The notes beneath the pieces were generated by a model. The model searched no databases. It was not told the DNA's origin and saw only the letters and a program-made list of their open reading frames with translations. A DNA stretch of 64,000 nucleotides, taken from the NCBI GenBank assembly GCA_018700525.1, contig JABITN010000093.1, forward strand, positions 1 to 64,000, written 5' to 3'. This DNA comes from Opitutales bacterium. Lineage in GTDB: Bacteria; Verrucomicrobiota; Verrucomicrobiia; Opitutales; Opitutaceae. This document shows, piece by piece, positions 5,974 to 64,000 of this stretch (the stretch's first letter is position 1; each line of letters starts with the position of its first letter). The translations under genes and the position numbers were made by a program.

Positions 5974-6042
5974 GCCCCTTTACCTATCAACGCCGCAGCC
6001 TCAGTCAAAAGCCTTTTTAGGAGACCCAAAGCTTCATCCGCT

Positions 6043-7449
6043 CTACTTCGATACAATTCCCGCTCGACGCGCGTCAGCGCTCATCTCTTCCTGAAACGTA
6101 ATTGCCATACCTCGAAGTTTGCGATTAATCACCTGATTGCGAACCGCCTTCGATTCACCCGGATCCGCTTCCAAATCATACAGCTTCAGCGTCGGGTTCA
6201 AAACAAGCTTCCACTTGTTCCAACGGACCGCCGCCAAGGCGCCATGGCTACCGTGATAGAAAAACGCCTGTAAATACTCATCGCGATCAAATGAATCCGA
6301 CCACTCGCCCGCCTGATCCCAGGAGCGCCGCAACGGCACGTCCGCATTGAGCGATAAGCCAGCTGACGGAGAAGGCACAAAATCCGTTTCCCCAGACAAC
6401 AAAGGGCTAATATCCCGTCCATCAATCACCCGATCTTCCGGCACGCGAATTCCCGCAAAAGAAGCCAAAGTCGGATACCAATCCATCGCAGCCACGACCT
6501 TGGAAGACTCGTACCCCGAACGGATTCCTGCACCGGGTCCCCACACGATCGCCGGTACACGGAGCCCGCCCTCGTAGGTCGACAGCTTCCGTCCCTGAAT
6601 CGGTTGATTCTTCGTCCTTCCGGGTCCTCGACCATTGTCCGACGCATACACCACGATCGTATTGTCTTCGATGCCCAACCGCTTCAAAGCATCGAATATA
6701 CGACCCACATGAAAGTCCATCTCCTGAATAGCATCTCCGTATTCGCCAAACTCCGACGACCCCTTAAACGGATCGCTCACTCCCAGCGGATTATGCAACA
6801 TCGTATGCGGAAGGTAGAGAAAGAACGGGTCATCGCCTTGACGTTCCATAAAAGCGATCGCCTCATCCGTATAAATCTTTGTCAATTCTGCAGGATCCGC
6901 AGGACGCTTCACCACCTTATCGCCGCGTATCAAAGGAACGCCGCCCACTTTATCGAAGTAAACGATCTCAACCGGATCCAAATTATGCAGCAACCCGAAA
7001 TAAAAATCGAATCCTTGCTGTTCAGGTAAAAACTGCGGATGAAATCCTAAATGCCATTTCCCTATGCACGTCGTGTTGTATCCGTTTTTCTGAAACAATT
7101 CCCCTAGAGTCAATTCACTCGGATGCAAGCCGCGACGCGAATCTGCCCGATGCACCCACGTTTCCATTCCTACGCGTCGGGGATAGCTTCCCGTAAGCAA
7201 CCCCGCACGCGAAGGACTGCAAATCGGAGCCGCCGCGTAGTAGTCCGTAAACCGCACGCCCTCTTTTGCCATCGCATCGATTCTCGGCGTCTTGAATTCC
7301 GTCGCCCCATAACATCCCAAGTCATAATAACCCTGATCGTCCACGAAGATGAAAACGATGTTGGGACGATTAAGCTCCGTCTGCTGACCAAAACAAGAGA
7401 GAAGAGCAATCAATGAAAATAGAAAGAAAGGAGTACGCTTCGAATTCAT
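6043..7449 (-). CDS. S1-family sulfatase, arylsulfatase A-like, probable lipoprotein
   Basis: This 468-residue sulfatase hydrolyses sulfate esters, probably on glycans. The N-terminus has a lipobox-like ALLSC, so it may be lipid-anchored. The metal site FIFVDDQGYYD (about residues 33-43) and the formylglycine signature C77-S-P-S-R-A-G are intact, with GKWHLG, VYASDNGRGPG and the C-terminal KLYDLEADPGE in the expected order. The Cys-type signature needs a formylglycine-generating enzyme or anaerobic maturase, neither of which is visible here. It probably shares a transcript with the DUF885 gene. The exact substrate subfamily cannot be assigned by eye. Confidence 0.93.
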   Translation of the reverse strand: MNSKRTPFFLFSLIALLSCFGQQTELNRPNIVFIFVDDQGYYDLGCYGATEFKTPRIDAMAKEGVRFTDYYAAAPICSPSRAGLLTGSYPRRVGMETWVHRADSRRGLHPSELTLGELFQKNGYNTTCIGKWHLGFHPQFLPEQQGFDFYFGLLHNLDPVEIVYFDKVGGVPLIRGDKVVKRPADPAELTKIYTDEAIAFMERQGDDPFFLYLPHTMLHNPLGVSDPFKGSSEFGEYGDAIQEMDFHVGRIFDALKRLGIEDNTIVVYASDNGRGPGRTKNQPIQGRKLSTYEGGLRVPAIVWGPGAGIRSGYESSKVVAAMDWYPTLASFAGIRVPEDRVIDGRDISPLLSGETDFVPSPSAGLSLNADVPLRRSWDQAGEWSDSFDRDEYLQAFFYHGSHGALAAVRWNKWKLVLNPTLKLYDLEADPGESKAVRNQVINRKLRGMAITFQEEMSADARRAGIVSK

Positions 7450-7669
7450 GATTCAAGAACCAACAGTCATTTCGTCTCCTATATCAAATCAAATCCAAAC
7501 ATCCGCCGAGAAAGCCAGCTCAATATCAAAACGATCGCGCAACATTGCGAACATAAGCAGAATACGACTCGATCAAGCATCATTCAGTTTTCGAAGAGCA
7601 CCCCGATTCAAACGCGCCGCCAAGCATTCGCGCTTCACTCGTCCGGCAATATGCGCTTCATTAAATACC

Positions 7670-8002
7670 ATGACCCCCGCTCAACTCGCCAAGATTCGTA
7701 CAATTGTCGAAGAGCGTATTAAGGAAATCGAGACCTTCCTCGCCCAGAAAGATCCCGAGTCTCAACCCGTATCCCCCGACGTCGCCATTGGACGACTCTC
7801 TCGGCTTGATTCAATGCAGGCTCAGCAAATGCTACTCGCCCAGCAGCGACGCCAACGCGAAGAACTCGAACACCTCCAAAGTGCCCTCGATCGAATCAAC
7901 AATGGGAGCTACGGGAACTGCGCCTATTGCCTTTCTCCAATCGCCTACGAACGACTTGAAGCCATGCCCGATGCAGTCGTCTGTATAAGCTGTGCTCGAT
8001 AG
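7670..8002 (+). CDS. DksA/TraR-type C4 zinc-finger protein
   Basis: The ORF track begins at 7448, but the extra N-terminus is basic and unstructured and overlaps the divergent sulfatase start. ATG at 7670 gives a 110-residue protein (MTPAQLAKIRTIVEERI) of normal shape. A helical, coiled-coil-like segment of about 70 residues precedes a C4 zinc finger, CAYC then CISC near the C-terminus. DksA/TraR proteins bind the RNA polymerase secondary channel and modulate transcription with ppGpp. At 110 residues it is between TraR (about 70) and DksA (about 150), so its role may differ from canonical DksA. Confidence 0.85.
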   Translation: MTPAQLAKIRTIVEERIKEIETFLAQKDPESQPVSPDVAIGRLSRLDSMQAQQMLLAQQRRQREELEHLQSALDRINNGSYGNCAYCLSPIAYERLEAMPDAVVCISCAR

Positions 8003-49634: not shown

Positions 49635-49816
49635 TCCACACTAGAGAACTCCGATCTATGCTTTCAACCTTGATTTCTACAGAAAAACCACGGATAACCC
49701 CAACCTGTTCTTTGATTTGTCACAAACGATGCTAACGCATCCGACAAATCGACTCCGAATAACGGCAATCAAGGACTTCATCCTTCAGCCCTATTCCTTC
49801 AACCTTAGAATTTATG

Positions 49817-50186
<370 letters not shown>

Positions 50187-53392: not shown

Positions 53393-53472
53393 GTTGATGG
53401 GAAATTGCTCCGCCATCTTCGCTCCGCTACGTCAATTGTTCCGACTGGATTCGGAGGGGAGGTTGATAGGAA
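53393..53472. repeat. GTTGATAGGAA family, long copy 1
   Basis: The unit begins GTTGATGGGAAATTGCTCC, contains CATCTTCGCTCCGCTACG, and ends TTCGGAGGGG; 69 bp after its start a second GTTGATAGGAA begins. It matches the copy at 60827-60893 at 63 of 67 bases. It lies between the EamA and large sulfatase genes. Confidence 0.8.
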
Positions 53473-53538
53473 GTGAAATGTCTGTATACACATCGTAATT
53501 AAAGGTGCTTATTGAGGCGAGTGACCTAAACATAGATT

Positions 53539-56500
53539 ATGATGAATTTTTCCCACAAGCTCTCTCGATCCTGCCAAATCAGCTTATTACTCGCGATATC
53601 CACTGTCTTTTGGGGGAGCGTTATCGCGGCACCGCGCCCTAATATCATCCTCGTCATGGCCGACGACATGGGCTGGGGCGATGTGAGCTACAATAGCAAC
53701 ACCGTCAGCTATCCCAATAACACCACCCTCTACCCGGTGAGAGCCGGTCAGCCTCACGAGGATCGAGGTTGGATTCACACGCCGGTCATGGACAGCATGG
53801 CAGCCAACGGAGTACGCTTTGATCGATTCTATTCCACCTCTGCCGTCTGCTCGCCCACTCGTTTCAGTTGCCTGACGGGGCGCCACCCGGTTCGAGGTGG
53901 CATTGGTGGTGCGAATACTGGCCGTCTCGACTTCGACGAAACTGCGCTCTCCGAAGTTCTTTCAGCCGAGGGGTATGCGACTGCTCACATGGGAAAGTGG
54001 CATCTTGGCATCCTGACCACGGAGAGACTCGATGGCAACAAAGGTGGCCTGCCCGATCATTTCGCGCGCTATAGCGGCCCATGGCACCACAGCTACGACA
54101 CCGTGTTTGCCACGGAATCCAAAGTGCCGACTTATAACCCTTATGGAAACTTCGACTATGACGGCGAAATGAATTTCACGAATGCTAACCTCTATAATGA
54201 CCATGGTACACGTTACTGGAAACTCCCCTACAGCGGCGACGAGATCTCTGGCGAAGGCACTCCAGTGGTTCCTGATGCACTACATACCATTGCCACCAAC
54301 TACGACACTCAGGATTATAACGGCGACGATTCGCAAATACTCGTTAATCGTGCCATTCCTTTCATGCAAGATGCTGTCGCCGATAACAAACCCTTCTTTC
54401 TGGTACTTTGGTTCCACACTCCACATAAACCGGTTAAAGATAAAGACGATCCCACTGCGTCTGCCAACTCGCAGGCTGGTCTCAAAAATTCGATTGAAGG
54501 CATGGATGCTGCCATTGGTCGTTTGCGAGCCGAGCTCGATACGCTCGGAGTGCGCGGCAACACGATGCTCTGGTTGACCAGTGACAACGGCCCTGAGAAT
54601 GGCATCGATTCGCCTACGGATGAATCGAACAATGAAGCTGACAAAATTTACCAACGCCCCATCCGTTCTGGCCGCTATCTAGACCGCAAAGGCTCACTCT
54701 ACGAAGGAGGTGTCATCGTGCCTGGTATCCTCGAATGGCCCAACGTCATCACGACCGGCAGCTCAACTGATATGCCTGCTGTTACGACAGATTATTACCC
54801 CACCATCCTCGATTACCTCCAACTGACCGTGCCGAATCAAAAACCGCTCGATGGCATCTCACTTCGTCCAGCGATCGAAGGAACTAGTCATACACGCTCC
54901 AAGCCCGTTATTTTCAGGCTCGGTGGCGACACCGCACTAAGGACCAATCAATATAAACTGGTAAATCAGAATATTGGCAATGACGTGTCTGGTGAGCTGC
55001 GCCTCTATGATATGGTCAACATTGCCGCTGGCGAGGAACCCGAGCAAACACCGCTCGCCACCGCCTCGGATTACACAACGAAATCACAAGCGATTCAAGA
55101 CCTCTATACTTCGTTGAAGGCCGAGCATGATACACTGCTCGCATCGGTCAACAATGACACCAACTACATCCATAGCTCACAGCCAACCATCAAACTCAGT
55201 ACTGATAGCAACACAGTAATCGCTCCATTTACAGTCACAGCCACCTTCAACGAGAGTGTCAGCCAGTTAAATGCAAACGAATTTGTGGTTAGTAATGGCA
55301 CACCCTCCGGTCTCTCCGGCAGCGGCACCACATGGACCGTTCTCGTGACACCGATTTTAAACGGCCCTGTCACTGTTGATCTACCATCTGGAGCAGTGAT
55401 TGATGTTGACGGAAACATCAACCCCTCCTCGAGTCAGTTAAGCGTCAATTACACTGGCAATTCGTCACCAAGTGTAACACTCACGACACTGAGCGATCCG
55501 GTTACATCCAGCTTCGTTGTGACCGCTACCTTCAACGAAGACGTTACCGGATTAATCGCGGACGACTTTGATGTCACCAACGGCACGGTCTCAGGTCTGA
55601 GTGGCGGTCCCGCGACCTACACCGTTACCATCAATCCAACAGCGGCTGGTAACGTATCGGTTTCTCTTCCTGCCTCATCCGCAGAGGACGGCGATACCAA
55701 TGGCAACAACGCCTCAAATCAACTCGCCCTTCTTTATCAAACAGGTCCCACACCGGCAGCCACCCTGACAGGTGTGGCGACCACCACTGGATCCTATTCG
55801 GTTTCCATCGCATTCAGTGAAAGCGTCACAGGCCTGAGTGACTCGGACTTCGCCGTGAGTAATGGTAGCGCCTCCAGCCTGTCGGGCAGCGGCGCAAGCT
55901 ATTCGGTGCTAATCACACCTGCTCTAGACGGGGATGTCACCGTTACTTTGCCCGCCAACACAGCGAGCACCCCGGATGATAGCCAAGGCAATACCGTTTC
56001 CAATGCACTGACCACTCTATACTCTACCGTTGGAGGAGGTGACGGCGGCGTCATTCATGAAGCGACGTTGACCGTAGGAGGTGGTAAAACGGTTGATAGT
56101 GATAATCTTGTTCCAGCACATGGATCCAATAATCAGGATAAATTTAATACCTCTGATGGAGCCCCGTATACTTCGACGTCCTTTGTTCGTGGCAGCAGTA
56201 ATTCTGCACGTAAAGTTCGAGCTTTTGTGAATTTCGATTTATCGGAACTCGCTGGTCAACCAGTGACCGCGGCGACCCTAGCCTTTAATGGTTATTCTTT
56301 GAATGGTAGTATCAACACGCATCTACAGGTAGTTGCCTTAGCCTCTGATTGGGTAGAAAGCGGCGACCCCAAACCGACATACAGCCATAATTCCTTCGGT
56401 AGCGTGATTGACGGGGGCGATATTTCAACCGGACGTGACGCAAATGGAGCCAAAGATTATAGCATCGATATCACAACGATGGTGCAAAATTGGAATAACG

Positions 56501-56856
56501 GGACATGGCCGAATTATGGTCTGCGTTTTCAACTTTCCGACCATAGCGTGAACAATGGACTTGGTATTCAACCCTCTGGGGAAGGTTCAATCAGTCTTGT
56601 CGTTGAGAGTGCTCCGCTCTTCATCACAGACTCTTTCATGCCTGATTCTGACGAGTTTACGATCGAATGGAACTCGGCGGCTGGACTTACCTATGGTATT
56701 GAGGCGAGCCCTAATTTGACAGCCCCATGGGAACCCATCATGAGTGTCCCTGGATCTAATTCCAGCACAAGTAGTTACACCATTCCTTCAGCAACGGGTG
56801 GCTTGAATAGACGTTTTTTCCGTGTGGTCTATCCGGTGCCTGAGGTTGCTGAATGA
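53539..56856 (+). CDS. Large multidomain sulfatase with Ig-like and DNRLRE-like modules
   Basis: The 1105-residue protein has a signal peptide and an S1 sulfatase domain (about 33-535) with the metal site VMADDMGWGDVSY, the formylglycine signature C104-S-P-T-R and LTSDNGPENG. Three Ig-like repeats follow (about 550-830), each with the strand pattern TATFNESVSxLxxxDFxVxNG and a closing VTVxLP. A DNRLRE-like module follows (FVNFDLSELAGQPVTAATLAFNG and SIDITTMVQNWNNGTWPNYGLRF, about 850-1025), and the end resembles the YGIEASPNLTAPWEP tails of Verrucomicrobia. It is a secreted or surface sulfatase with adhesive modules. Confidence 0.88.
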   Translation: MMNFSHKLSRSCQISLLLAISTVFWGSVIAAPRPNIILVMADDMGWGDVSYNSNTVSYPNNTTLYPVRAGQPHEDRGWIHTPVMDSMAANGVRFDRFYSTSAVCSPTRFSCLTGRHPVRGGIGGANTGRLDFDETALSEVLSAEGYATAHMGKWHLGILTTERLDGNKGGLPDHFARYSGPWHHSYDTVFATESKVPTYNPYGNFDYDGEMNFTNANLYNDHGTRYWKLPYSGDEISGEGTPVVPDALHTIATNYDTQDYNGDDSQILVNRAIPFMQDAVADNKPFFLVLWFHTPHKPVKDKDDPTASANSQAGLKNSIEGMDAAIGRLRAELDTLGVRGNTMLWLTSDNGPENGIDSPTDESNNEADKIYQRPIRSGRYLDRKGSLYEGGVIVPGILEWPNVITTGSSTDMPAVTTDYYPTILDYLQLTVPNQKPLDGISLRPAIEGTSHTRSKPVIFRLGGDTALRTNQYKLVNQNIGNDVSGELRLYDMVNIAAGEEPEQTPLATASDYTTKSQAIQDLYTSLKAEHDTLLASVNNDTNYIHSSQPTIKLSTDSNTVIAPFTVTATFNESVSQLNANEFVVSNGTPSGLSGSGTTWTVLVTPILNGPVTVDLPSGAVIDVDGNINPSSSQLSVNYTGNSSPSVTLTTLSDPVTSSFVVTATFNEDVTGLIADDFDVTNGTVSGLSGGPATYTVTINPTAAGNVSVSLPASSAEDGDTNGNNASNQLALLYQTGPTPAATLTGVATTTGSYSVSIAFSESVTGLSDSDFAVSNGSASSLSGSGASYSVLITPALDGDVTVTLPANTASTPDDSQGNTVSNALTTLYSTVGGGDGGVIHEATLTVGGGKTVDSDNLVPAHGSNNQDKFNTSDGAPYTSTSFVRGSSNSARKVRAFVNFDLSELAGQPVTAATLAFNGYSLNGSINTHLQVVALASDWVESGDPKPTYSHNSFGSVIDGGDISTGRDANGAKDYSIDITTMVQNWNNGTWPNYGLRFQLSDHSVNNGLGIQPSGEGSISLVVESAPLFITDSFMPDSDEFTIEWNSAAGLTYGIEASPNLTAPWEPIMSVPGSNSSTSSYTIPSATGGLNRRFFRVVYPVPEVAE

Positions 56857-56903
56857 ATTTGATCACCTCATCAAAACCACCCTGGCATCTATCCTTATTT
56901 TAT

Positions 56904-56943
56904 GTTGATAGGAAATCCCAAGGTTCCGCAGTTGAAGCAATTG
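56904..56943. repeat. GTTGATAGGAA family, short divergent copy
   Basis: GTTGATAGGAAATCCCAAGG with TTCCG further on shares the start of the long copies but differs in the middle. It lies 48 bp after the large sulfatase stop. Confidence 0.55.
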
Positions 56944-57020
56944 TATAGCATATATTGATGGAGGCTGTATTTTATTTATTGATCGTATCGATGCTCCCAC
57001 GCTACGTTCCTGAAGAGTAG

Positions 57021-57302
57021 TCAGCTCGTGGCATTCGTCCGCTCGAGCACGATGTGCTCGGAGCGGTAGTACAGAAAGATACACGCGAGGGCCGCCGCAC
57101 ACAAGAGATGCCATATAGCACGTGCCTGGAATATTGTGTCGGGGCCGGCTAGCGTCTGCGGGACGGTCGTGTCTCCAGTTGGCCTCTGATCCCAATGGTC
57201 CGATTTGATTCGGGGGTAGTTTAAAGGTTGACGTAGCGGTATCACGTTGGGATTCCCGTTCGACTGTTTTCTGGCGTATGCCGGTTCATGGCAGCTAACC
57301 AA
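57021..57302 (-). pseudogene. Possible C-terminal relic of a ceramidase-like membrane protein
   Basis: The fragment reads GPDTIFQARAIWHLLCAAALACIFLYYRSEH, which resembles the last helix of ceramidase-family (PF05875-type) proteins, where a conserved His-containing ALWHLL motif ends the protein. The upstream 60 residues are not convincingly related, and there are no other ceramidase helices. It is a short relic in a region of gene remnants. The identification rests on one motif. Confidence 0.4.
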
Positions 57303-57633
57303 TTAAATCTTAGTTCAATGGTCCTAGAGTACTGGTTGCCCCAAACGTTGTTGATAGGAAATTCAATTGTTCCGATTTGATGTAGGTTGATCGGCTATCA
57401 TCCGAATAAGCCACGTCGTTGGAGCTTTCATTTTGGGCTTTAGCTTGTGAAGATGAAGTAGTCATTTTAGGTCCGGACGTAAAGTTCGCCGGCAGCAATA
57501 CCGCGATGAGCAAAGATTAGATAGTTTATGAACCAAAAATAGAAGGGCAAATCCTGACTACTGACGTACTAGCTGTCGGGTGCAATGAATCTTGTTCGAT
57601 TTTTTAATTATTGGAATTTAGGAAGTCCGATAG
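57303..57633. other. Intergenic stretch with a short repeat copy
   Basis: It contains the GTTGATAGGAA copy at 57350. A minus ORF (57310-57513) begins with a signal-like MLIAVLLPANFTSG but reads through the repeat and looks like a remnant; I assign no function. Confidence 0.4.
57350..57394. repeat. GTTGATAGGAA family, short copy lacking the insert
   Basis: GTTGATAGGAAATTCAATTG, then TTCCGATTTGATG, is the long form without the 26-bp GCTCCGCC...GCTACGT segment. Another GTTGAT begins 36 bp later. Confidence 0.7.
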
Positions 57634-57957
57634 CAGGTAAAAAGCATTTCTATACGGCTCAAAATGATCGAGTACATCCAACGCAACATCGGCCAACGCT
57701 TTACGCTCAAAGAGCTCGCGGCCAACGCAAATATGAGTCCCAACTATTTCGGAGCCCTCTTCTTAAAACGCTTCAACAGTACTCCGATCGACTATTTCAA
57801 TCGCCTCAAAAACCAACGCGCCTGCGAACTGCTCACCACAACAGCACTTCCCGTAGGTTTAATAAGCGAGCAACTCGGCTACGCCGATTCCCTCTACTTC
57901 TCCCGCCTCTTCAAAAAGATTATGGGCGTATTTCCCCGTGGATGCAGGAAAGCGTAA
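57634..57957 (+). pseudogene. AraC-family DNA-binding domain fragment
   Basis: The 97-residue ORF from 57664 is an AraC/XylS C-terminal domain: FTLKELAANANMSPNYFGALFLKRF (first helix-turn-helix) and ISEQLGYADSLYFSRLFKKIMGVFP (second). In frame upstream only ten more codons precede a TAG at 57631. No ligand-binding domain is present. It may be a remnant of a sugar-responsive activator of the neighbouring genes, or a minimal regulator; I favour a remnant. Confidence 0.75.
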
Positions 57958-57973
57958 AAGTGCTCCAAACCAA

Positions 57974-60292
57974 TCACTCGCTCAAGTTCGCAATACCGGG
58001 TGTAGCTGTCATGAAATCGAATGTGTCTGAATCCTCAGGCAATCGGCCATAGGAAGTATCTGTAGTTTGAGCATCGAACTCGACTCGATCCAGCACGACA
58101 TTCAAATTCGCATCCGTATCCACAATCAGGATCTCCTCCCCACTGGCTGAGAGCTTGAAGTTAGCGTGAAGACCTTCCGTGTCTGAACCATCATCGTCCG
58201 CCCAGACAATCAGATAGCCGTTAGCGGAGATAGTGGTTCCTTGGGGAATCTCCCACTTCCTTGGATTGTCCGCGTTATCGGTGAGGAACATACCAGACAT
58301 ATCCAATTCCTCTGCGGAAAGATTCTTCAATTCGATCCAATCATCATAATCGCCCTGCGGGTCGACCAGTGTGGAATCATTTGATGCCATAAACTCGTTT
58401 ATCACGACCGAAGTCTCTACCGCATCTGTAGTTAGCACCTCAAACTTAAGCGGCTTCGACTCGGCACGTGCGGGTAAGTAACTCACCGTCTTATCGCTAT
58501 TTCCAGAAATCGCCTCCACGTAGTAGCATATCTTCTGCCCGGCCTGATAACCCGCAGTCACACCCCCGTACACGCCATCACCGGCAGCTCCGTCGTCGTG
58601 TAAACCATCGTCGAGCATCGCAACATCGGTGTATCCTCCCGCGTCTCCTACGCGGTAATACAAACGAACAGAACCAACTCCTTCAGATTCATGTTGGCTG
58701 ATCGACGCCGCAATAGAAGCTGGCTCTCCTGCAGTCGGTACCTCAAGCAGGTTTATGCTGCTTATGTTAGGTCCCGTTTTCGAAATATCCGCGTGTCCTC
58801 GCAAATAGTCATAGCGACTTTGGATGTGTGATTTCAAAGCAACGATGTCAGAACTGAACAAGCTGAAAGAGAATCCTCTCTTCGGATCATTTTCTAGTTC
58901 ATCCGAAATGACAGCCCGATAGGATTCGATAAGCGCATTCATGTAATCTGGATTGAAACGCTCATCTAAAATCGTCCTCAAGTGAGCACAGTAGCGCTGC
59001 TTCAATTCCGGATTGCTTAGGAACTTATCAATCACAGGACGGTTTGCATTCCCCAAGCCCTCGAAGGGACTAAGGGAAGATTGCGCCACGGTAAATGCCT
59101 CATTCCCATCGTGCTCTATGGGATGTAGGCGCCCCCCTTCTGGATCATAGTAGATCTGGTAGTCAGCCCCTTTGTGCCAATAGCTATCATCATCGGTAAA
59201 AATATTTTCCGCAGCCAAAAACCAAAGCCATTCATCGACTGCAAAAATTGTATCCATAGTTTCACGATATCCACTGTCTGAATTGTTCGTTTCGTCTAAA
59301 AACTTAGCTGCAGCGATCAGATTGGACCAGGCGACTCCTGTACCATCCTTCTTCAACTCGTAGAACCCTTCGTAGTCACTCGCATTATCGCCAAGGTAGC
59401 CTAAGGCCTTGTCAGCAGTGTCCCACTGCCCCCCACCTCCACCACCAGGACCTCCACCACCAGGGCCGCCGTTTTCGCCTCCTCCAGCACCCGTTCCACT
59501 TGGCGCTTTCCAACGGTCTCCGTCCGCATCATCAAACCACGTTTCAAGTAAGGTCTTATCCTGTTGTTGGGCATTCGAATAGAGTCCCCAATTTTCCCCA
59601 TTGATCTTAATCTTAATGAACCCTGCACTCGGAGTGATACAGTACTCTTTAATCGAATTAAAATAGAGAGCCTCTCTCATCAACGTTTCATCGTCGAAGG
59701 CATTGTTGAAGTTGAAATCATCGAAACCCATTATTTCCAAATCGGCATCGCCGTACTCCATATCGATCGCGATTGATTTTTTCTCTCCACTTCGAGTATA
59801 GGAAGTATTACCTTTATAACGTATCCCGATTTGTGGATACTCGAATCCATCATAGCTAACATCTCCGGCCAGGAAACTCGCATCGGCATAATTTCCTGCC
59901 AATATTGTACTCCAATCTGACTCGGCAAATTCGATACTAATCGTTTGCAGAAAAAACGGATCATAAAAACCCGGAATATTACGAGCTCGATAAAAAACAG
60001 TTTCACCATCGAAAGAAACAGAAATCGGGCCATGATCTGAATAAACCGAGGTCATCTCTGGGATCCGGTCCCAAGCCACCAAGTTTTGGGAGGTCTCAAG
60101 TACCCAAGCGTCGTCTTTATCCCCAATAACTTGCAAATCGATTGCATCATCATCGATCTCTATTTCTAATACACCGACAACATCACCATCAGCCCATAAT
60201 TGAACCACCCCAAACAACACCAACCAGCAACTCGCCATTTTCATAGCATCACCACACCTCATTCGTATATTATTTTTAATTACACTTATCAT
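57974..60292 (-). CDS. CotH-type kinase domain protein with lamin-tail domain
   Basis: The 772-residue protein has a signal sequence (track start at 60292; MKMASCWLVLFGVV at 60244 is an equally good start). A CotH domain (about 110-500) has IGIRYKGNTSY, GENWGLYSNAQQQDKTLL, the Gly-rich insert GGPGGGGPGGGGGG and the active-site-like DDDSYWHKGADYQIYYD...HPIEHDGNEAF. A beta domain and a lamin-tail domain (VINEFMASNDSTLVDPQGDYDDWIELKN, about 640-770) follow. CotH proteins are atypical kinases; the exported ones are often surface anchored. Convergent to the AraC relic. Confidence 0.87.
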   Translation of the reverse strand: MISVIKNNIRMRCGDAMKMASCWLVLFGVVQLWADGDVVGVLEIEIDDDAIDLQVIGDKDDAWVLETSQNLVAWDRIPEMTSVYSDHGPISVSFDGETVFYRARNIPGFYDPFFLQTISIEFAESDWSTILAGNYADASFLAGDVSYDGFEYPQIGIRYKGNTSYTRSGEKKSIAIDMEYGDADLEIMGFDDFNFNNAFDDETLMREALYFNSIKEYCITPSAGFIKIKINGENWGLYSNAQQQDKTLLETWFDDADGDRWKAPSGTGAGGGENGGPGGGGPGGGGGGQWDTADKALGYLGDNASDYEGFYELKKDGTGVAWSNLIAAAKFLDETNNSDSGYRETMDTIFAVDEWLWFLAAENIFTDDDSYWHKGADYQIYYDPEGGRLHPIEHDGNEAFTVAQSSLSPFEGLGNANRPVIDKFLSNPELKQRYCAHLRTILDERFNPDYMNALIESYRAVISDELENDPKRGFSFSLFSSDIVALKSHIQSRYDYLRGHADISKTGPNISSINLLEVPTAGEPASIAASISQHESEGVGSVRLYYRVGDAGGYTDVAMLDDGLHDDGAAGDGVYGGVTAGYQAGQKICYYVEAISGNSDKTVSYLPARAESKPLKFEVLTTDAVETSVVINEFMASNDSTLVDPQGDYDDWIELKNLSAEELDMSGMFLTDNADNPRKWEIPQGTTISANGYLIVWADDDGSDTEGLHANFKLSASGEEILIVDTDANLNVVLDRVEFDAQTTDTSYGRLPEDSDTFDFMTATPGIANLSE

Positions 60293-60307
60293 TTTGAATT
60301 CCCAAAT

Positions 60308-60484
60308 TTAGGACCTTTCTCCCACCGTTGATTCGAGCTCCAAACAAATACGAAACAGATTCTTTTTCCGCTTCAGGCTTTCTTCCTTAAAGAAGTGAAT
60401 CGCTTTGCGTGCGGACCAGGAGTCCGTCACTCCATCTCTAAACGTTTCGAGGTCAGACAAGCCTGAATTCAGATGACCGGACAC
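60308..60484 (-). CDS. Small helical ORF of unknown function, GTG start
   Basis: Not in the track. The minus frame reads LSDLETFRDGVTDSWSARKA then KEESLKRKKNLFRICLE, ending at TAA 60308-60310, and looks protein-like (58 residues from GTG 60484). A second minus frame just before it (stop 60496-60498, open to about 60660) reads WVDSVWQEMRRVIELEERID. The two could be a small gene pair or one frameshifted relic. No family recognised. Confidence 0.3.
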   Translation of the reverse strand: MSGHLNSGLSDLETFRDGVTDSWSARKAIHFFKEESLKRKKNLFRICLELESTVGERS

Positions 60485-60771
60485 GTCTCCACTAACTAAT
60501 CAATACGTTCTTCGAGTTCGATCACTCGTCTCATTTCCTGCCAAACACTATCCACCCATACGTTCGATTTCTTCAGAGCGATGGTCCACCCGATTAAAGA
60601 GTATTTTTCAAAATTACAGAAGTTTGCCCTCTGCCCATAATCATTACGAATTAAAGGTTAAGAAAGTTTCTTTTTTTTCGATAAATTTTCAGGCTTCTCG
60701 TAGCGATCTTCGGTTTGATTGCGTTGGCTTTCGAGAAGACTCTGCTTGTGCCGGTATTGGGCTAATCGCGT

Positions 60772-60831
60772 ATGAAAATTCTAGTTGTGGAAGATGATGG
60801 GAAGTTGTCGGATTTTATCCAAAAGGGTTGA
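60772..60831 (+). pseudogene. Response-regulator N-terminus cut by the repeat
   Basis: MKILVVEDDGKLSDFIQKG is the start of an OmpR-family receiver domain and then runs into TGA, exactly where the GTTGATAGG repeat begins (60827). The remaining two hundred residues of such a protein are missing. Confidence 0.72.
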
Positions 60832-60906
60832 TAGGAAATTGCTCCGCCATCTTCGCTCCGCTACGTCAATTGTCCCGATTTGATTCGGAGGGGTTGTTGA
60901 TAGGTG
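60827..60906. repeat. GTTGATAGGAA family, long copy 2
   Basis: The unit matches copy 1 at 63 of 67 bases and again is followed by GTTGATAGG after 69 bp. Its first bases truncate the receiver gene. From 60907 to 61076 the sequence is AT-rich and holds no gene before the lyase. Confidence 0.8.
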
Positions 60907-61076: not shown

Positions 61077-64000
61077 ATGCACTTGGTCTTTAATAGACTA
61101 CCAGTTTACATTCGCGTTTCAGTAGGCCTGAGTTGTTTTTTATCGTCTGCTGCCCTGGCTGACCAGGCGGCAGATCTAGTGTCAATATCGAGTCGCTACA
61201 AGGGTATCGTTATGGGTGGCGCTCCGAGTAACGACAACGCTGTCGCGGGGTATCTCTCGCTCCTGAGCGGCAGCGGGCGCTTTACAGACATCAGTTACGG
61301 CGCTACTGATCGGGATTCCGGATTTGATGTTGCGGTGCACCTGGAGCGCACTCGTTATATGGCTCAGGCATATGTAAGGACTGGCGGGTCATACAATGGT
61401 GACGCTGATCTGCGCAGTAAGATCTTTTCTTGTATCAGCGGCTGGTTGAATGGCACGCCCAACAATGTCAACTGGTGGTGGAGTACGATTGGCTGGCCGA
61501 AAACATCCTCTGAGATAGGAGTGCTAATGAAGGAGGCCCTGACGACTCACAATACTGGTCTGCGGAGCAGTCTGGTCTCATACCTGATATCATCCAGCTG
61601 GAGCAAAATCGTTAACCAAGCAGGTGCCAATGCTACCGACGTGCAACTGGTGGGACTGGCAGCCGGAGCAATATCCGATGATTATTCCCTCTGTTCCACG
61701 GTTGTGAATTCAATGCTTTCCACAGTCGCATACAAGTCAGGCAATAATGACGGTATGATGACGGATGCTTCATTTACTCAGCACAATATACACGGGCGGC
61801 AGCTGTATCATAACGGATACGCCAATGTTTACCTGTTTGGCTTTATCAACATTGCGAACGTCGTAAAGGGTTCCAGTCTCCAGGTTCCTTCCTCAAAGGA
61901 CGCTCTGATTGAAGACTTCTTTCTCAACGGCATCCAGAATCTGATCTATGGACCACACTATAGTGATGTTCTGGTATCTGGTCGGGGATTTGCCGGGAAT
62001 CCTAACTCGATGCCTAATTCAGCGAGATGGCGCTGGCCGCTGGAAGCTTTCATCGCTTACGCACCGTCAAGAAAAGCGGAGCTGGAAGTCCTTCATGATC
62101 GGATGATGGGGGTTACAAGCGAAACGACAGTCGCAAATAAGATGTTTTGGCATACTGACTTCATGACCCATATACGTCCCACCTACTACACGAGCGTCAG
62201 AGGAACATCAAATCGCACGGTAGGGAACGAGTCGCTCAAAGGTGCAGGCAAGTTAAGCTACCACATGGGTGATGGTGTGAATATGGTTCTGCATCATGGC
62301 GACGAGTATGCCACAATCCTTCCTGTATGGAATTGGCGTCGACTGCCCGGAACGACTATAGAGCAGCGCACCGATGCTCTGCCACTTGTCGAAGGCGGAA
62401 CCGGCGGTGCCGGCGGAACAAGCTATGCCGGTGGAGTATCGGATGGTAGATATGGTGCATATGGTTTCATCTTCAACGAAAACGGGAGTCAGAACAGTAA
62501 TGTAGACGCATATAAAGCCCATTTCTTTTTTGATGATGAGTTTGTCGCCTTGGGAGCGGGCGTATCGGCACCTGGTGCGGCTAACTCCGTAGTCACGACA
62601 ATCAACCAGACTTTGCATAAGAGCAATTTCACGGTGGGCGGCAGTTCTCCACAACAGGCCTATTCCGGAGGGCAGGCCGTGCTGGCCGAAAACGATTGGG
62701 TACACCACTACGATATCGGCTATATGATGTTAGGTCATTACGGCACCGCTTCCGCAAGTGTAGCTGTACAACAGGGCCGCTGCAGCGATATAGGTGACGG
62801 GCTAAGTACCGACTTGCTGAGCGAAAGTGTGTTCAGCGTCGGAATTGACCATGGCAAAGGCTTTAGCGGCAAGAACTATGCGTACGTAGTCGTGCCGGGT
62901 GTAAGTGTTTCGCAGATGGATAGCTATGCGGCCGATAAACCCGTTCGTATACTCTCCAATTCGACAACTGTCCAGGCAGTGCATCATGATGACCTGGATA
63001 TGACCGGTGCTGCATTCTATAGCTCAGGCAGTTTTACAATGGCTGATGGAACCACTCTTACCAGCGATAAGGCGGTATGCCTGCTTGTGAGGAAGGTCGG
63101 GGCCTTTGTCTTAATATCAGCAGCAAATCCGCAGTATCAGGCACTGACAGTTAAGGTCACAATGGAGGATATGCTGTCAGGAGACGGTGTGATCTTCGAC
63201 GAATCTACCGGGATCTCAACTGTTACGATCAGCCTTGCCGGCGGAAATGACAGTGGTGATACAGTAACTGTCGCTCTGAGCGATTTGTCTTCCGGAACTG
63301 GTCAGGGCGAGGTGTTTAACGGTTCGTTTGAATACGGTCTTGCTGGCTGGGGCAACTGGAACAGTCCAACCATTACCGGCGATGCAGTCGACGGCAGTTC
63401 TGCCCTGAAAATGTTCGATGCCGGTTCCGCGAACCAGATGGTAACCGTGGCTCCTAATACCACCTATACCGTCTCCGCCTATGTAAAAATCAGTGATGGC
63501 GCAAAACGATTAGTTTTCGGTGTAAATGATGGCGATGATAACCCGCTTCAGTTGATGGATGTGTTCAATACGTCATACAGTCTAAAGAGTCATACTTTTA
63601 CCACCGATGCGAATACGACCTCGGTTAAGGTATGGTTCTGGCAGCCGCCAAGTGATGGGGCTTCTGCATATATCGATAATGTACAGATGACAAGCGGGCC
63701 ACCCGATACCACACCGCCGACACCTGATCCGGCATCATTCTCGTCAGCGCCCGCAGCTACAAGTGATACTGTCATTACAATGACAGCGACACTGGGAACG
63801 GATGCATCTGGAACCGTTGAATATCTATTTACTGAGACGACTGGCAGGGCAGGGGCCACTGACGGCACCTGGCAGACGAGCCGGATTTATACGGATTCCG
63901 GGCTCTCACCCGAGACGACTTATGCTTTTACGGTCCAGATGCGCGACGGCGAGGGCAATGTAGGTACAGCTTCAGCAACGAAAAGCGCCACAACAGACGC
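61077..64000 (+). CDS. Polysaccharide lyase family 8 enzyme with C-terminal modules (3' end beyond window)
   Basis: The frame is open from ATG 61077 to the edge, about 974 codons, and was absent from the track. A signal peptide (VSVGLSCFLSSAALA) precedes an alpha/alpha-toroid catalytic domain with NVNWWWSTIGWPK and the catalytic His/Tyr segment TQHNIHGRQLYHNGY, then PNSARWRWPLEAF. The beta-sandwich region follows (GGVSDGRYGAYGF, HHYDIGYMMLG). Near residue 745 a CBM4/9-like module begins (FNGSFEYGLAGWGNW), and after DTTPPTPDP a fibronectin III-like module. PL8 enzymes cleave chondroitin, hyaluronan, xanthan or related uronides by beta-elimination. The substrate is not determined. Confidence 0.87.
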   Translation, partial: MHLVFNRLPVYIRVSVGLSCFLSSAALADQAADLVSISSRYKGIVMGGAPSNDNAVAGYLSLLSGSGRFTDISYGATDRDSGFDVAVHLERTRYMAQAYVRTGGSYNGDADLRSKIFSCISGWLNGTPNNVNWWWSTIGWPKTSSEIGVLMKEALTTHNTGLRSSLVSYLISSSWSKIVNQAGANATDVQLVGLAAGAISDDYSLCSTVVNSMLSTVAYKSGNNDGMMTDASFTQHNIHGRQLYHNGYANVYLFGFINIANVVKGSSLQVPSSKDALIEDFFLNGIQNLIYGPHYSDVLVSGRGFAGNPNSMPNSARWRWPLEAFIAYAPSRKAELEVLHDRMMGVTSETTVANKMFWHTDFMTHIRPTYYTSVRGTSNRTVGNESLKGAGKLSYHMGDGVNMVLHHGDEYATILPVWNWRRLPGTTIEQRTDALPLVEGGTGGAGGTSYAGGVSDGRYGAYGFIFNENGSQNSNVDAYKAHFFFDDEFVALGAGVSAPGAANSVVTTINQTLHKSNFTVGGSSPQQAYSGGQAVLAENDWVHHYDIGYMMLGHYGTASASVAVQQGRCSDIGDGLSTDLLSESVFSVGIDHGKGFSGKNYAYVVVPGVSVSQMDSYAADKPVRILSNSTTVQAVHHDDLDMTGAAFYSSGSFTMADGTTLTSDKAVCLLVRKVGAFVLISAANPQYQALTVKVTMEDMLSGDGVIFDESTGISTVTISLAGGNDSGDTVTVALSDLSSGTGQGEVFNGSFEYGLAGWGNWNSPTITGDAVDGSSALKMFDAGSANQMVTVAPNTTYTVSAYVKISDGAKRLVFGVNDGDDNPLQLMDVFNTSYSLKSHTFTTDANTTSVKVWFWQPPSDGASAYIDNVQMTSGPPDTTPPTPDPASFSSAPAATSDTVITMTATLGTDASGTVEYLFTETTGRAGATDGTWQTSRIYTDSGLSPETTYAFTVQMRDGEGNVGTASATKSATTD

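Follow-up and report, generated by a model that had tools for sequence, protein, structure and literature searches.

A small dispersed repeat of essentially one Opitutaceae genus, with one fixed end, one ragged end and an orientation that follows replication

The stretch analysed here (the window) comprises bases 1–64000 of contig C30 of an Opitutales bacterium, whose genome of 4.8 Mb is assembled in 268 contigs. To the right of its tmRNA gene the window carries copies of a short repeat, which are members of a genuine dispersed repeat family. The repeat has a fixed GTTGATAGG end and a ragged opposite end. Copies are oriented with respect to replication, and in two genomes that are each assembled as a single contig the GTTGATAGG strand is the one inferred to serve as lagging-strand template. 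We see an even chance that the family is a small, non-autonomous mobile element restricted to this genus, comparable in a broad sense to miniature inverted-repeat transposable elements (MITEs) or repetitive extragenic palindromic (REP) sequences, and that it is inserted by a fork-coupled, one-ended mechanism.

The existence of the family was assessed by pattern searches of the window's genome with reversed sequences as controls. GTTGATAGGAA gave 27 exact matches, compared with 1 for its control, and the adjoining core CAATTGTTCCGATTTGA gave 46 matches with up to two mismatches, compared with 0. A BLAST search with an 80-nt query identified 43 places. The original prediction, a new dispersed family of REP/MITE-like type in which long and short forms are nested, was thus borne out by the genome-wide search, which revealed tens of copies per genome, essentially in one genus, rather than single chance similarities. 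Rfam gave no match for the window region or for a 240-nt long form of the repeat. It is extremely improbable that the copies resemble one another by chance or that they belong to an end of some known insertion sequence (IS). Nothing was found in favour of it, and it is contradicted by the two controls, by the lack of any transposase, integrase or reverse transcriptase among 30 neighbouring proteins scanned, and by the location of the Y1 transposase genes on repeat-free contigs.

With the core of the other strand, CGAATCAAATCGGAACAATTG, and up to three mismatches allowed, the repeat was detected in 10 of the genus's 11 genomes, in 1 to 44 copies each (control, 0). A stricter pattern matched 5 of the 11 and none of 27 genomes from other genera, families and orders. 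The genomes were sampled and not read end to end. When 84,980 species genomes were scanned, matches appeared in metagenome-assembled genomes (MAGs) of Opitutaceae and Opitutales, in one MAG labelled 'Verrucomicrobiales' and on a few contigs of MAGs named for other phyla; a search of viral contigs gave no match. The last group includes repeat-bearing contigs in MAGs named Planctomycetes (L190), Porticoccaceae (L171), Planctomycetota (L174) and Alphaproteobacteria (L188). One contig of this kind shares 0.9 kb at 99% identity with the sister genome G010, so mis-binning is the likely reason for their presence. Another shares a long form at 98%, and the alphaproteobacterial contig comes from MAG ANT-99, which by its name probably belongs to one series with the Opitutaceae MAG ANT-100. 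Transfer across phyla was rejected for these matches, mis-binning being likelier.

The anatomy of the repeat was derived from 142 distinct copies. In the plus orientation of the window the unit reads GTTGATAGGAAATT-[block]-CAATTGTTCCGATTTGATTCGGAGGGGAG, about 43 nt plus optional inserts. The internal block is missing from 107 of the 142 copies; it measures 20–22 nt in 16, 26 nt in 10, 54 nt in 4 and 86 nt in 2, with three single odd lengths. Blocks of all discrete lengths occupy one internal position. The long form had been proposed to be a short unit carrying an insertion. This is supported insofar as the 26-bp block is one of several that share a position; either form may be the ancestral one.

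The two ends of the unit behave differently. The GTTGATAGG end is sharp (the sense strand terminates in ...CCTATCAAC) and is mostly preceded by TT, with T at position −2 in 107 of 142 copies and at −1 in 93, while positions farther out are near background. At the opposite end the consensus is mostly left 35–46 nt from the GTTGATAGG end, and other copies leave it at many points. Most copies are 35–69 nt long. Long forms extend to 240 nt, and at least five copies go further, to about 467–493 nt. GTTGAT occurs within 16 nt after the unit in 35 of 142 copies, compared with 1–6 in later intervals, and head-to-tail copies are therefore common; remnants of 9 nt and 11 nt behind two long copies in the window are examples. 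GTTGAT always abuts at the left end and no duplication was seen there; with few empty sites, this hexamer may be either the target or part of the element.

No complete autonomous element was found among the long forms. The 240-nt form was considered as the full element and rejected, as other copies run on to about 467–493 nt, beyond which they join further pieces that are also shared. Translation across the distal part of the long form gives a peptide (WDQTPRYWSDTPLGQWAIEANRWDG...) without a Pfam match. On inspection the short forms lacked inverted ends. Some long forms contain GTTGATAGG together with an inverted CCCTATCAAG near nt 61–70, which is an internal pair. A separate 65-nt segment (GGATGGGGCATGCAGCGCATG... 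on the sense strand), seen at L228 (G000:C62, ~73.05–73.12 kb) and elsewhere, was present in at least seven genomes of the genus, in some of them nearly without the GTTGATAGG repeat; it is apparently another dispersed repeat.

The strongest feature of the family is its polarity, which could not be seen within the window. In G010 (one contig, 4.09 Mb) the region between about 0.4 and 2.2 Mb has positive GC skew save for local exceptions, and the rest of the contig is mostly negative. The sense strand (...CCTATCAAC) lies opposite the G-rich strand in all 20 copies found there with up to two mismatches, and the polarity is kept by 26 of 29 copies when three are allowed. All 9 copies in G007 (one contig, 4.85 Mb) conform as well. 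Counted by cluster, the agreement is 9 of 9 in G010 and 4 of 4 in G007, and 11 of 13 plus one mixed cluster in G010 at the looser threshold. For the window's genome, where local skew was taken over 7–64 kb, the rule is followed by 11 contigs and broken by 2, with 1 further contig mixed. The G-rich strand is usually the leading strand, and taking it as such makes the GTTGATAGG strand the inferred template for lagging-strand synthesis.

These observations are consistent with a mechanism in which copies would be laid down at replication forks. A one-ended reaction on single-stranded DNA would begin at the GTTGATAGG end, and the point where it halts would vary. Copies would then persist mainly in gaps between accessory polysaccharide genes, where established ones might act as short homologies or breakpoints for the exchange of gene modules. 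The nearest precedent for the enzyme would be a single-strand transposase of the IS200/IS605 type (Y1 HUH) acting in trans, with a reverse transcriptase as the alternative.

IS200/IS605 elements are oriented according to the direction of replication, and their transposed strand is found on the lagging-strand template (PMC5371812). The repeat resembles them in its replication-linked orientation and in the placement of its active strand on the lagging template, a likeness that is partly violated in the window's genome. ISDra2 inserts 3' of TTGAT (PMC2806898), and the studied repeat begins GTTGAT|AGG in a similar way. In contrast to this group, the repeat has no conserved subterminal hairpin, a ragged second end, a TT preference upstream and no linked tnpA. 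Subterminal hairpins of the IS200/IS605 type were tested and not found, the second end of the repeat being undefined, and for this reason the repeat was not filed under IS200/IS605.

The genome-wide search for a mobilising enzyme covered three families. Two matches to Y1 transposases were found in the window's genome, both on contigs without the repeat. Linkage of the repeat to a transposase or REP-associated tyrosine transposase (RAYT) thus found no support, either in these matches or among the 30 neighbouring proteins. The intact match is a RAYT-like gene (G000:C126:212-721, locus L092) flanked by its own REP-like hairpin repeats (CAGCTGACGGGTCAGCGCCCCGTCCTACAA...), which are unrelated to the repeat studied here. 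Identity with a REP/RAYT system was rejected on the same grounds. What the family has in common with REP sequences, bacterial interspersed mosaic elements and their RAYTs is a short dispersed repeat and a RAYT-like Y1 gene in the same genome; it differs in that this gene accompanies other, hairpin-rich repeats and does not lie near the studied one.

Retroposition was also considered. A small RNA corresponding to the sense strand, with the 3' end CCUAUCAAC, would be reverse-transcribed at forks with TT/AA two-base priming, and template jumping would generate the head-to-tail copies. Such a process would fit the fixed 3' end and variable 5' end, the TT preference, the head-to-tail junctions and the strand polarity. 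It is nevertheless unlikely. The reverse transcriptase family PF00078 is absent from the window's genome and from G010, which has 29 copies of the repeat, while elsewhere in the genus its members are few and some are fragmentary. Target duplications are likewise lacking, there is no Rfam match and the folding is unremarkable.

Folding of the 240-nt form as RNA or DNA, on both strands, was no better than that of shuffled sequences, and the same held for most repeat subtypes. For the best local stem of the unit, TCCGA/TCGGA, each pair was broken on one side in 12–28 of 82 distinct rows and compensated in 0–2. Together with the Rfam result, folding and covariation speak against a conserved hairpin or a structured RNA. 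Most copies may be dead and free of selection, which weakens this negative result.

The age of the copies appears to be mixed. The exact 35-nt consensus is carried by 38 of 142 distinct copies, from five genomes, which indicates that the spread is partly recent. Several copies are orthologous between species and thus old and stable. Comparison of a copy in G010 with its counterpart in G005, within orthologous regions about 93% identical, showed a clean 43-nt difference beside an older truncated copy, the flanks not being duplicated. No excess of target duplications was detected: the flanks matched over at least 4 nt in 3 of 126 copies, compared with 3.9 expected from shuffled pairs.

Several homology breakpoints between species were found at or in the repeat, in examples taken from loci picked for holding repeats. 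At L135/L190 the right flank is common at 99%, the repeat is cut at about 22 nt and the left flanks are unlike. In L135 the reading frame of a nucleotidyltransferase (7081-7860) ends within the repeat (...LIGNSIVPI), and the protein thus takes a new C-terminus from it. L206 and L093 have the right flank in common and differ in repeat subtype and left flank. L134 and L314 are alike through the left flank and across the repeat, and part exactly at the CAAC end, and two further pairs (L205/L315 and L324/L314) part inside the repeat. The suggestion that the repeat is a recombination scar delimiting island modules therefore holds in part: such breakpoints exist and copies separate gene modules, but other copies are orthologous and stable.

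A related explanation is that the repeats are immobile, being old short homologies that travelled in islands through horizontal transfer and homologous recombination and persist today as no more than scars of recombination. The many copies in islands and near tRNA or tmRNA genes, the persistence of orthologous copies between species and the coincidence of breakpoints with repeats are all as expected from it. Since it leaves unexplained the chromosome-wide polarity, the TT preference and the 38 exact consensus copies over five genomes, we regard it as distinctly unlikely.

Another possibility is that the repeat is the recombination site of a gene-cassette system. In this integron-like scheme a cassette would consist of a gene and one repeat, exchanged at the ...CCTATCAAC end by an unrecognised recombinase. 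In the sister genome G010 an array of co-directional single genes beside tRNA-Lys is separated by repeats, which lie 12–60 nt before several start codons; this array, the exact parting of L134 and L314 at the CAAC end, and the occurrence of some repeats core-to-core without a gene between them speak for the scheme. Even so, it too is distinctly unlikely. A search of the window's genome for integron integrase (TIGR02249) gave nothing above the cut-off, and the tyrosine recombinases of the array genome are XerC-like, XerD-like and one broken copy. Among 104 copies, the next gene past the CAAC end has the sense orientation in 60 cases and the opposite one in 36. The far ends are ragged rather than precise, and other breakpoints fall inside the repeat. 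Inspection of 71 copies did not reveal the features of attC (paired R and L boxes, a GTTRRRY crossover), and there is neither the R''/R' inverse core of attC nor a conserved fold. In summary, the repeat is like integron arrays and clusters of attC sites lacking integron integrases in having co-directional sites that separate single genes at some loci, and unlike them in the absence of IntI and attC architecture and in the mixed orientation of genes. It is improbable that it serves as the exchange site of an unrecognised Opitutales cassette system without an integron integrase, swapping single sulfatase, lyase and glycosyltransferase genes at forks.

Insertion of a mobile element at forks is the reading that we prefer, and several points weigh against it. 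The polarity was read from GC skew in 20-kb pieces as a stand-in for a mapped origin, and the counts are not fully independent, since common descent accounts for part of the copies and clusters. Contig C30, which holds the window, breaks the polarity rule, with a skew of −0.157 in the window and four sense-minus copies; this exception may reflect an island inserted whole, for example near the tmRNA gene. The ragged far ends could partly be due to decay after insertion. The 43-nt difference between G010 and G005, being next to an older copy, could also have arisen by unequal recombination or slippage. Finally, no enzyme is linked to the repeat; the mobilising enzyme may have been lost from these genomes or may act rarely.

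The copies and genes of the window are listed in Table 1. All coordinates given by the original prediction were correct. On realignment the two long copies matched at 63 of 67 bases as described, and over 78 bases at 72, four of the six mismatches falling within the first 67. The second GTTGATAGG is present 69 nt on from each, and the copy at 57350 equals the long form minus the 26-nt block exactly. Of the two short copies proposed, that at 57350 was verified, whereas at 56904 only a remnant of the left end is present, and a distinct copy of the right half begins some 290 bp beyond it. With up to one mismatch allowed, the 11-mer is matched 8 times in the window, compared with 1.2 expected. To the left of the tmRNA gene, where no copies had been seen, only lone 11-mers occur (at 5981, 21594 and 42077, with one mismatch each), at about chance level. 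Three further copies lie just past the window end (contig C30:64647, 65801 and 67344).

Table 1. Repeat copies and selected genes in the 64-kb window.
Feature	Position	Strand	Details
tmRNA gene	49816..50172	+	all copies listed lie to its right
Long copy	53393..53461	+	left end GTTGATGGGAAATT (53393-53406), 26-nt block GCTCCGCCATCTTCGCTCCGCTACGT (53407-53432), right half CAATTGTTCCGACTGGATTCGGAGGGGAG (53433-53461); the minus strand is the sense strand (terminating in CCTATCAAC)
Second copy, abutting the first long copy	53462..53472	+	11 nt, then cut (GTTGATAGGAA)
Sulfatase with bacterial Ig-like domains	53539..56856	+	module gene; Pfam
Left-end remnant	56904..56916	+	GTTGATAGGAAAT, without right half
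Fragment from far part of long form	57140..57200	+	~409-469 nt from GTTGATAGG end; 87% identity to contig C62 long copy
Right-half copy	57192..57222	+	CAATGGTCCGATTTGATTCGGGGGTAG, without its own GTTGATAGG end
Short copy	57350..57383	+	GTTGATAGGAAATTCAATTGTTCCGATTTGAT, no internal block, then GTTGAT
CotH-kinase / lamin-tail-domain protein	57974..60292	-	module gene; Pfam
Long copy	60827..60895	+	includes 26-nt block (60841-60866)
Abutting copy	60896..60904	+	9 nt, then cut (GTTGATAGG)
Polysaccharide lyase family 8	61077..63998	+	module gene; Pfam; continues past the window, 1145 aa on contig (L093:1078-4512)

Copies are mostly intergenic and separate sulfatase, lyase and glycosyltransferase genes. 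The genes beside them also encode polysaccharide lyase family 8, glycoside hydrolase family 88 (GH88), esterases, a sulfotransferase, FkbM methyltransferase, CotH and metallo-beta-lactamase-fold proteins. The repeat array of G010 lies within a tRNA-Lys island (L134:768-4840), at the far side of which lie an incomplete copy of tRNA-Lys and the remnant of an integrase. A 20-kb segment of G007 (C1:4600000-4619999, L265) is a foreign low-GC island, with a G+C content of 29.7% compared with about 52% for the chromosome.

Among known small repeats, the family is like Correia/NEMIS, ERIC, RUP and CIR in that most copies are below 200 bp, intergenic and non-autonomous and number in the tens. Correia elements occur in two forms of about 107 and 155 bp, a 50-bp internal block apart, and CIR has no terminal inverted repeats (PMC2229807). 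Forms differing by an internal block are thus shared with Correia. The studied repeat differs from all four in having no detected target duplication or conserved hairpin, one ragged end and a strong replication polarity. BOX elements of pneumococcus are modular and range widely in size, from 67 to 637 bp (PMC3049150); the modular build with optional internal modules is similar, whereas BOX has defined modules at both ends and the studied repeat has one ragged end and blocks at one position between its halves. As in MITEs, the copies are small, numerous, non-coding and mostly intergenic; the target-site duplication of MITEs was not found.

The present family provides a sharp constraint on how such repeats move: one fixed and one ragged end, no target duplication and, in two single-contig genomes, an orientation set by replication. 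Bacteria commonly carry small dispersed repeats, and the mechanism that mobilises them is mostly unknown. The repeat also marks breakpoints in islands with sulfatases and polysaccharide lyases, the genes with which these bacteria degrade sulfated polysaccharides.

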